The notes below the pieces were generated by a model. That model did not search any database, had not been told where the DNA came from, and saw nothing but the letters and a program-made list of their open reading frames with translations. This document shows, piece by piece, positions 53,387 to 56,036 of a stretch of 64,000 nucleotides of DNA (positions within the stretch are counted from its first letter, which is position 1; each line of letters opens with the position of its first letter). Source of the DNA: Centipeda noxia ATCC 43541 (GTDB lineage: Bacteria; Bacillota; Negativicutes; Selenomonadales; Selenomonadaceae); assembly GCF_000160555.1 (NCBI RefSeq), contig NZ_GG749278.1, forward strand, positions 29,424 through 93,423, in the 5' to 3' direction. Position numbers and translations under genes: made by a program.

Positions 53387-54703
<1,317 letters not shown>

Positions 54704-54778
54704 TCATCACCAAACAACCCGAGCATCCCCCCGAATACACGATCTTCCCTGCATTCTCCCTGATAACTCTTATCTGTC

Positions 54779-54807
54779 ATTATACGATTTTTCATAGGAA
54801 AAAGCAA
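54779..54807 (-). promoter_or_regulatory. Predicted eno promoter
   Basis: On the minus strand TTGCTT (54807-54802) and TATAAT (54784-54779) are 17 bases apart, giving an 80-base leader before eno. Confidence 0.65.
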
Positions 54808-54924
54808 TGCAGGAGCCGCCTCCCCGGAGCGATTATCCGTGTCTTTTCCGATATTTTTTAAAGACATCTGAAAACCATATAGAACGCAAAAGTTTTTACT
54901 GAATTTCATTCTTATTTTGTATTA

Positions 54925-54940
54925 TGTGACTCGGGTCACA
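54925..54940. promoter_or_regulatory. CRP/FNR-family (or Rex-like) operator upstream of the candidate small RNA
   Basis: TGTGACTCGGGTCACA is a perfect inverted repeat fitting TGTGA-N6-TCACA. Its centre (54932.5) is about 41.5 bases before the predicted transcription start, the class II position for CRP-type activators. Rex operators share the same half-sites. Confidence 0.7.
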
Positions 54941-54961
54941 CAATTTTCAAAAAAAATGTGC

Positions 54962-54967
54962 TATAAT
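54962..54967 (+). promoter_or_regulatory. Extended -10 of the candidate small RNA promoter
   Basis: TGCTATAAT (TG at 54959-54960, -10 at 54962-54967). The matching -35 position reads CACAAT, far from consensus, which fits dependence on an activator bound at 54925-54940. Confidence 0.65.
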
Positions 54968-54973
54968 ACAAAC

Positions 54974-55166
54974 TGTCAACGGGAACCGCGAAACGTCCTC
55001 CCCGACATTTTCCCCCGTTGATCATCCCTCTTATAGGAACGTTTCCCTGCGTTCCTCTTGTAAGGAAAATACCCTTACATCCCATTTCTCAAGCCGCAGG
55101 TTTTCCTGATCTGCGGCATCCCTTTCCAGGAAAAAGAGCCGCCGGACTAATGCCGGCGGCTCTTTT
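54974..55166 (+). ncRNA. Candidate structured small RNA with C-rich loops
   Basis: About 190 nt from the predicted start to a strong terminator, with no convincing ORF. Consecutive perfect stems are visible: TCAACGGG/CCCGTTGA (54976-54983 with 55014-55021), AGGAACG/CGTTCCT (55035-55041 with 55050-55056), TGTAAGG/CCTTACA (55059-55065 with 55073-55079), GCCGCAG/CTGCGGC (55093-55099 with 55111-55117) and the terminator. Most loops and linkers are C/U-rich (CGTCCTCCCC, TTTTCCCCC, TTTCCCTG, ATCCC, TTTTCCTG, ATCCCTTTCC), complementary to GGAGG/GGGAAA-type ribosome sites. This is the design of trans-acting sRNAs such as RsaE/RoxS, though I make no homology claim. The CRP-like site suggests control by energy or redox state. 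Confidence 0.6.
55135..55166. terminator. Strong terminator of the candidate sRNA, also serving the ZIP gene
   Basis: AGAGCCGCCGG/CCGGCGGCTCT stem with a 7-base loop, T5 on the plus strand and a matching A run on the other side, so it works both ways. Confidence 0.9.
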
Positions 55167-55174
55167 TCTGCTTA

Positions 55175-55954
55175 TTATCCCAATGCTACATCGAGCATCA
55201 TCATGAGTGAGAATCCCGCGGCGAACGAAATGACGCCGACATCCGAATGCGTGCCCTCGCTCATCTCCGGAATCAATTCCTCCACGACAACATAGAGCAT
55301 CGCGCCGGCCGCAAATGCAAGTGCATAGGGCAGTATCGGCACGATAATCGCCGTCGCAAGAATCGTAAGCGCACCGCCGATCGGCTCGACCGCACCGGAG
55401 AGAACGCCGCCGCCGAAAGCGCGCCATTTTCCCATCCCTGCCGCACGCAGAGGCATCGAGATAATCGCCCCTTCGGGAAAGTTCTGGAGCGCGATGCCGA
55501 GCGAGAGCGCAAGTGCTGCGCCGAGCGTAATCCCCTCACTCCCGCTCAGCCAGCCGGCATAGATGGCGCCGACGGCCATGCCCTCGGGAATATTATGCAG
55601 AGTCACAGCAAGCACGAGCATCGTCGTCCGTGAGAGACGGCTGTGCGGTCCCTCGGCTTTCTTCGCATTCATATGCAGATGCGGGATGATATGATCGAGC
55701 AGCAGGAGGAAGAGCGTCCCTGCCCAGAATCCCGCAACCGCCGGGATGAAGGCAAATGATCCCATATCGGCGGCACCCTCCATCGCCGGGATCAAAAGGC
55801 TCCAGATTGACGCCGCGACCATAATGCCTGCGGCGAACCCGGTCAGCCCGCGCTGCACACTGCGGTTCAGCGCGTCCTTCAGAAAGAACACGCAGCCCGC
55901 ACCGAGTGTCGTCCCAACGAACGGAATCATCAGCCCTTCAATGACTTCCAGCAT
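55175..55954 (-). CDS. ZIP family metal transporter
   Basis: A 259-residue inner-membrane protein with about eight TMs. The two ZIP metal-site helices are HNIPEGMAVG (about 120-129) and NFPEGAIISMP, with a short His-containing variable loop (HIIPHLHMNAKKAEGPHS) between TM3 and TM4. ZIP proteins import Zn2+, Fe2+ or Mn2+; which one is unknown. ATG 55954 is favoured over the in-frame GTG at 55963 by AAGAGG 8 bases upstream. It is monocistronic and shares its terminator with the candidate small RNA. Confidence 0.93.
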   Translation of the reverse strand: MLEVIEGLMIPFVGTTLGAGCVFFLKDALNRSVQRGLTGFAAGIMVAASIWSLLIPAMEGAADMGSFAFIPAVAGFWAGTLFLLLLDHIIPHLHMNAKKAEGPHSRLSRTTMLVLAVTLHNIPEGMAVGAIYAGWLSGSEGITLGAALALSLGIALQNFPEGAIISMPLRAAGMGKWRAFGGGVLSGAVEPIGGALTILATAIIVPILPYALAFAAGAMLYVVVEELIPEMSEGTHSDVGVISFAAGFSLMMMLDVALG

Positions 55955-56036
55955 AAATTTCACCTCTTATGCGGAATATTATAGCACGTTCCCTTCGGGG
56001 CAACAAATGATATATTTTTCAATCATACATAAAAAG

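Follow-up and report, generated by a model that had tools for sequence, protein, structure and literature searches.

A predicted non-coding RNA gene lies on the plus strand between the enolase gene and a ZIP-type metal transporter gene of Centipeda noxia, in a window of 64,000 nucleotides. The unit consists of an operator, an extended -10 and an RNA of about 195 nt (Table 1). On balance, and by a small measure only, we favour the reading that a class II CRP/FNR-type operator governs a gene for a non-coding RNA, with the narK-linked Fnr as the likely activator, and that the product is predicted to repress mRNAs by pairing with ribosome-binding sites. As a small RNA gene it would be new and genus-wide but of a kind already known, and its action is predicted. 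The operator, the 21-bp spacing common to narK, narG and mop, the stable computed fold, the C-rich unpaired segments with their very low variation, the terminator and conservation across the genus can all be read from the DNA itself.

Table 1. Features of the predicted small RNA locus (positions in the window)
Feature	Position	Strand	Basis and remarks
Predicted small RNA, about 195 nt, standalone	54974..55169	+	Fold, identity, DNA and covariance-model searches
eno (enolase)	53387..54691	-	TIGR01060, 664 bits; diverges from small RNA
ZIP-type metal transporter gene, ZupT-like	55175..55963	-	NF003243, 117.5 bits, below cut-off of 252; converges on small RNA
CRP/FNR-type operator TGTGACTCGGGTCACA	54925..54940	.	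Centre at predicted -41.5; TGTGAC-N4-GTCACA, perfect
Extended -10 TGCTATAAT	54959..54967	+	Hexamer starts 21 bp past operator
Stem-loop P1 with loop GUCCUCCCCGAC	54975..55022	+	Single fold, consensus fold; loop invariant in 14/14
Predicted seed, anti-Shine-Dalgarno-like loop GTCCTCCCCGAC	54995..55006	+	Complementarity to ribosome-binding sites beats 97/100 shuffles
Linker 1, single-stranded, with CAUCCC	55023..55034	+	Fold, alignment
Stem-loop P2, loop UUUCCC or UCUCCC	55035..55056	+	Single fold, consensus fold
Stem-loop P3	55059..55079	+	Single fold, consensus fold
Linker 2, single-stranded, with CCCAUUUCUC	55080..55092	+	Fold, alignment
Stem-loop P4	55093..55117	+	Single fold, consensus fold
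Linker 3, single-stranded, CAUCCCUUUCC	55118..55128	+	Fold, alignment
Intrinsic terminator, 17 pairs, loop of 7	55129..55169	+	Terminator search

Fold and conservation of the predicted RNA

An earlier note, made from the letters of this DNA, had proposed an undescribed structured RNA beside enolase, with at least four stems, a strong terminator, C/U-rich loops and linkers and no credible reading frame. Each part of that description stands. The note had also delimited the element correctly, save that the terminator stem runs 3 nt past the end it gave. Positions 54974-55170 fold to -84.3 kcal/mol, versus -45.0 +/- 3.7 for dinucleotide shuffles (z = -10.7; 0 of 200 as good), into four stem-loops and the 17-pair terminator. 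The same stem-loops appear in 13 of 13 RNAs folded singly (G007 left out), and the RNAalifold consensus has five helices with 35 pairs. Hardly any variation is seen in the C/U-rich loops and linkers, which read CGUCCUCCCCGACAU, AUCAUCCCUCU, U(U/C)UCCCUG, ACAUCCCAUUUCUCAA and GCAUCCCUUUCCA.

In the alignment, 98.8% of 490 cells pair, versus 31-45% when the partners are slid. Shuffles matched the observed number of paired cells in 5 of 500 cases, the cells changed on both sides in 5 and the covariation score in 17, in a test where related sequences may beat such shuffles without any structure. Covariation of the stems, which the earlier note had put forward as a check, was examined as well. Changes on both sides were confined to two pairs, a number that 98 of 500 shuffles reached (as they did for further pair types), too little variation to decide; because the stems hardly vary, the test is nearly uninformative. 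Support for the predicted fold thus comes mainly from energy and little from covariation. The unpaired columns of the small RNA, to judge by the alignment, are guarded too: 58 of 91 unpaired columns are invariant, versus 55 of 70 paired ones (14 sequences, gaps counted as variation).

Conservation is strong across the genus. A DNA search matched a 281-bp stretch in all 14 genus genomes, and mean pairwise identity among 13 of them (G007, partly unreadable, was left out) is 0.90 in the RNA, 0.845 in the operator and 0.86 in the spacer and -10. For comparison, the upstream DNA reaches 0.455 and enolase third codon positions 0.673. The earlier note held that its reading would fall if the operator, stems and C-rich loops were not conserved in related genomes; operator and loops are kept in 14 of 14 and the stem-loops in 13 of 13. 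Among the 13 genomes read, no open reading frame in the small RNA is conserved. Five carry a frame that opens with TTG and spans 52 codons up to where the stretch read stops, and in the others it is broken; frames starting with ATG, of 47 and 38 codons, are confined to G003 and G004. Peptide coding was rejected, as no frame is kept across the 13 genomes.

Across the family, the DNA search matched 19 of 189 genomes and covariance model R1 matched 16. Five of the DNA matches lie outside the genus; they are 24-30 bases long, span only the spacer and -10, and were rejected as relatives. Two covariance matches outside the genus, at 22.9 and 21.6 bits, are weak and lie inside long coding frames, and were rejected too. 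A credible operator, promoter and RNA together were found by these two kinds of search in none of the 175 other family genomes. As far as the searches reach, the predicted small RNA is confined to the genus (oral Selenomonas and Centipeda).

Rfam 15 gave no match at gathering score in the window, and a permissive search returned 21 sub-threshold matches, many of them over the terminator. The literature searched, judged by titles, describes no regulatory small RNA from Selenomonas or its relatives in the Negativicutes; searches on Veillonella parvula small RNAs or transcription start sites and on Selenomonas Fnr, Crp or nitrate-reductase regulons found no papers. It is within Rfam 15 and these titles that the RNA is undescribed.

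Enolase lies upstream of the small RNA in 13 of 13 genomes, the two being transcribed away from each other. G007 has extra DNA, mobile-element-like by eye, between eno and the operator, and this insertion suggests that the operator does not serve eno. In G009 the ZIP-type gene seems to be absent 3' of the RNA and a LuxR-type response regulator gene comes next, again by eye; in the window such a gene follows the ZIP-type gene. A promoter-like match on the minus strand (TTGAAA-18-CATAAT, window 54921-54950) overlaps the operator. If this promoter is real, the activator would block a promoter directed towards eno.

A class II operator and its spacing

The start at 54974 is predicted, 7 nt beyond the -10, and it is this position that gives the operator its centre at -41.5. 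The earlier note had described a perfect CRP/FNR-like repeat about 41.5 bases before the start, followed by an extended -10 with a poor -35. The repeat and the -10 are present as it described, and a sigma-70 scan of 54650-55250 found no plus-strand promoter-like site. The locus thus has what a class II CRP/FNR-activated small RNA gene should have, a CRP/FNR-type operator near -41.5 of the predicted start and an otherwise weak -35. Exact TGTGACNNNNGTCACA occurs once in the 2.05-Mb genome, at the small RNA.

The operator takes the form GTGAC-N4-GTYACA in all 14 genus genomes. Exact TGTGA-N6-TCACA is found at the small RNA in two of them only (G000 and G006); the other 12 operators are one base off the Fnr consensus, ten ending in GTTACA and two without the first T. 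All 14 have GTGAC as the half farther from the promoter and 10 have GTTAC as the nearer half; in G000, G006, G001 and G009 both halves are GTGAC.

From the operator to the -10, 13 of 14 genomes have a spacing of 21 bp at the small RNA, and G001 has 22. The spacing is also 21 bp at narK in 13 of 13, at narG in the four examined (hexamers TAAAAT, and TAACAT in G003), at mop in 10 of 11 genes with a site and at hcp in two of three examined; tied hexamers were resolved by the script towards 21 for the small RNA, narK and narG. This shared spacing is the geometry of class II activation. G001 has 22 bp at the small RNA, mop and hcp, yet 21 at narK, perhaps owing to a different activator. The Mop-type molybdenum-binding gene is present in 13 genomes, with no match in the genome studied here. 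Twelve of these were scanned (G003 was left out) and a CRP/FNR-type site lies upstream in 11 (L191-L203), G004 having none. The Mop-type frame shows a stop in G011 and G013.

Candidate activators

That the activator belongs to the CRP/FNR class is well supported. The domain model PF13545 has seven matches in this genome, five over cut-off, and four of the proteins are of CRP/FNR type by length and sequence: Fnr, a trxB-linked CRP-type protein, an HcpR-like protein and one adjoining a fumarase-like gene. This last, fumarase-linked protein was identified in 10 genomes examined. The PF13545 matches across the genus include one more group of CRP-type proteins. Our first choice, not settled, is that the activator in this genome is most likely the narK-linked Fnr. 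Its gene is divergent from a NarK-family gene (on which NarK models score below their cut-offs), and we infer Fnr because such an operator is common to the fnr gene itself and its narK-like neighbour. Fnr carries the C-terminal motif CENCGKDIC, as does its namesake in B. subtilis.

This genome has three exact copies of TGTGA-N6-TCACA (between fnr and narK, before narG and before the small RNA), against one match for a reversed-pattern control, in a scan that took in eight of the 14 genus genomes. The small RNA operator matches those of narK and narG here in consensus and in 21-bp spacing. An exact site is found upstream of fnr in 13 of 13 Fnr-bearing genomes and in eight of these reads TGTGAC towards the divergent gene, the orientation that it has in the small RNA operator. 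The N-terminal part of narG scores 527 bits with TIGR01580, below the whole-protein cut-off because the frame is partial. This narG, outside the window (L086 15261-18956), consists of two adjacent frames of 293 and 933 aa; it may be interrupted or may reflect sequencing error.

A member of the Fnr regulon would have its operator at consensus and keep it only together with Fnr, and the small RNA does neither. Fnr was found in 13 of 14 genomes, with 58% identity in G001 and 82-87% in the others; G009 has no Fnr among its PF13545 matches, yet it keeps the RNA and a GTGAC-N4-GTCAC operator. The Mop gene of G009 also lies behind a GTGAC-N4-GTCAC-like operator. Because a genome without Fnr keeps the RNA, and because 12 of the 14 operators deviate from consensus by that one base, other CRP-type regulators are possible. 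Position 6 of the operator is C in 14 of 14 cases at the small RNA, in 8 of 13 at narK and in 0 of 4 at narG, a pattern that would better suit a regulator whose half-site is GTxAC. The Fnr recognition helix is RESLNQ in this genome versus RESLNR in the 12 other Fnr helices, and here the narK site reads TGTGAT, the small RNA operator still TGTGAC.

The same RNA and pairing mechanism might instead be driven by the CRP-type protein whose gene adjoins a thioredoxin-reductase-like gene (L024), in response to a redox signal, a possibility that we take seriously while thinking it unlikely. This protein is present in all 14 genus genomes, G009 included. Its helix AREVVSR (AREVISR in G006; read in 13 of 14 genomes, G008 left out) has the R-E pair of CRP plus S-R, for which the residue-to-base correlation of Rodionov et al. 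2005 (PMC1274295) would predict a half-site of GTGAC type; the small RNA and mop operators of G001 and G009 are all perfect GTGAC-N4-GTCAC. However, the 80-130 or so bases upstream of its own operon hold no such site in 13 genomes, no other target of the protein was identified, and the likeness to the narK and narG promoters would need a second explanation. Sites near the trxB-like/CRP operon were set aside, all lying within coding sequence.

HcpR, a regulator of the nitrosative stress response, is a more doubtful candidate, whether acting alone or sharing the operator with Fnr. Ten of the 14 operators pair a GTGAC half with a GTAAC half, and their GTTACA end is half of an HcpR2 site, the motif GTAACATATGTTAC of Rodionov et al. 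2005 (PMC1274295). HcpR is found in 14 of 14 genomes (helix SRPSLSRE in this one) and GTAACATATGTTAC in at least 12 of 14, preceding hcp in the three opened (L051, L058, L045). At the hcp promoters this HcpR2 motif stands at class II spacing. The small RNA operator, on the other hand, does not have the GTAAC-N4-GTTAC form of the HcpR2 regulon: its distal half is GTGAC throughout, and in four genomes both halves are. The looser pattern GTRAC-N4-GTYAC is no evidence by itself, because the reversed control outnumbers it in 12 of 14 genomes (the two are equal in G003, and the control has fewer in G009). Among the matches listed elsewhere in the genus, twenty stretches with such sites were inspected and many of the sites lie within coding sequence, for example, by eye, in an htpG-like gene and in repeat-rich surface-protein genes.

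Rex and CRP operators resemble each other, and the earlier note had considered Rex-like control. RsaE/RoxS (RF01820) has redox-linked control, and C-rich regions able to pair with G-rich mRNA sites; RoxS in Bacillus is repressed by Rex (PMC5419742). The predicted RNA shares such regions and has a sub-threshold structural match to RF01820, but at 23.3 bits this match stays below the gathering score, 79. Its operator sits at the upstream activator position of -41.5, whereas the Rex site of RoxS lies just downstream of the start (PMC5419742). We reject Rex control, which we consider extremely improbable, because no Rex domain was found: a search of this 99.98%-complete genome with the N-terminal domain PF06971 came back empty, and in the controls seven of 14 genomes match, six over cut-off.

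Predicted targets

The P1 loop contains the anti-Shine-Dalgarno (anti-SD) core CCUCC. Anti-SD-like hairpin loops are a feature of the CUCCUCCC 'cuckoo' RNAs of alphaproteobacteria, which belong to another phylum and were compared by description only. Against 50 start regions chosen for an SD-like motif (from this genome, in the window and three fetched stretches), loop 1 pairs with a mean of -12.45 kcal/mol, versus -9.5 on coding controls and -10.1 +/- 1.05 for shuffled loop 1 on the same start regions, 3 of 100 shuffles being as strong. For the other segments, the number of shuffles in 100 that were as strong was 5 for loop 4, 7 for linker 1, 21 for linker 3, 46 for linker 2 and 68 for loop 2; loops 1 and 4 and linker 1 are set apart from the rest. 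Because six unpaired segments were tested, with no multiple-test correction, the pairing of loop 1 is suggestive only. Silencing of mRNAs with strong SD sequences is a prediction with modest statistical support.

The target pattern GGGGAGGA-N4..10-ATG gave 100 matches versus 22 for its reverse in five of the 14 genomes, an excess that mainly reflects SD usage. Among the matches 90 loci were inspected and 64 start-linked frames of at least 60 codons kept. These include clpP and trpA in four of the five genomes (the trpA site may fall in the end of the upstream gene) and an ExbB-like gene in three. In G000 and G009 a site precedes sdhB/frdB (NF006391, 361 bits, cut-off 244), with predicted duplexes of -20.2 and -22.2 kcal/mol in a first ranking that was biased by taking in motif-chosen loci; a repeat ranking, on the 50 start regions above, excluded those loci. 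This subunit of succinate dehydrogenase/fumarate reductase is the candidate target most worth testing. Other bacteria offer an analogy for lowering the fumarate/succinate enzyme while nitrate is respired, and its repression during nitrate respiration would make sense.

The transcript could also be mainly a decoy for an RNA-binding protein, acting through its three CAUCCC linkers and not as an antisense repressor. The linkers are near-invariant, and in complementarity to ribosome-binding sites linkers 2 and 3 do no better than shuffles and linker 1 only weakly so. We know of no protein that binds CAUCCC in these bacteria, loop 1 does show such complementarity, and we hold the decoy role to be quite improbable.

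Discussion

In our working model the narK-linked Fnr would activate the small RNA from the -41.5 operator, and the trigger would be anaerobic or linked to nitrate. The RNA would then act in trans through the P1 loop UCCUCCCC and repress mRNAs at their ribosome-binding sites, and the CAUCCC linkers may provide further contacts with targets. Our guess is that once nitrate respiration is on, the iron-sulfur subunit mRNA sdhB/frdB and similar mRNAs with strong SD sequences would be turned down.

Among known systems the small RNA would appear to work most like FnrS of E. coli. The E. coli FNR site is TTGAT-N4-ATCAA, whereas in Selenomonas/Centipeda the site is TGTGA-N6-TCACA and Fnr, the likely activator, is of B. 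subtilis type; the RNA has no likeness in Rfam, and it has four stem-loops and C-rich loops and linkers. Like FnrS, the predicted small RNA has its own promoter, a CRP/FNR-type site at -41.5 and an intrinsic terminator. FnrS has a class II FNR site centred at -41.5, and a functional equivalent has been proposed in Neisseria gonorrhoeae (PMC3032703). SnoA of Bacteroides thetaiotaomicron, compared by description only, is likewise a regulatory RNA linked to a CRP/FNR-type regulator: it is a nitrite-responsive RNA locus tied to HcpR and is reported to promote HcpR-dependent hcp expression (PMC13370916).

It is tempting to go further, with a speculation that we hold to be improbable. The RNA may be a genus-specific master RNA in a diderm Firmicute (Negativicutes), coupling translation to both nitrate respiration and nitrosative stress. 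Merged Fnr and HcpR half-sites (10 of 14 species) would supply the input, and once a better electron acceptor is at hand six unpaired C-rich segments would silence many strong-SD mRNAs, that of the fumarate/succinate enzyme included.

Selenomonas and related bacteria live in dental plaque, and nitrate reduction matters to that community. The locus offers a short, testable set: a single operator and a single loop, with three or four regulators as candidates. If our reading is true, this RNA would join FnrS of enterobacteria and its proposed gonococcal equivalent as one more small RNA driven from -41.5 by a CRP/FNR-type activator. The same -41.5 wiring in an RNA that has no Rfam sequence likeness would suggest that such wiring has evolved repeatedly.
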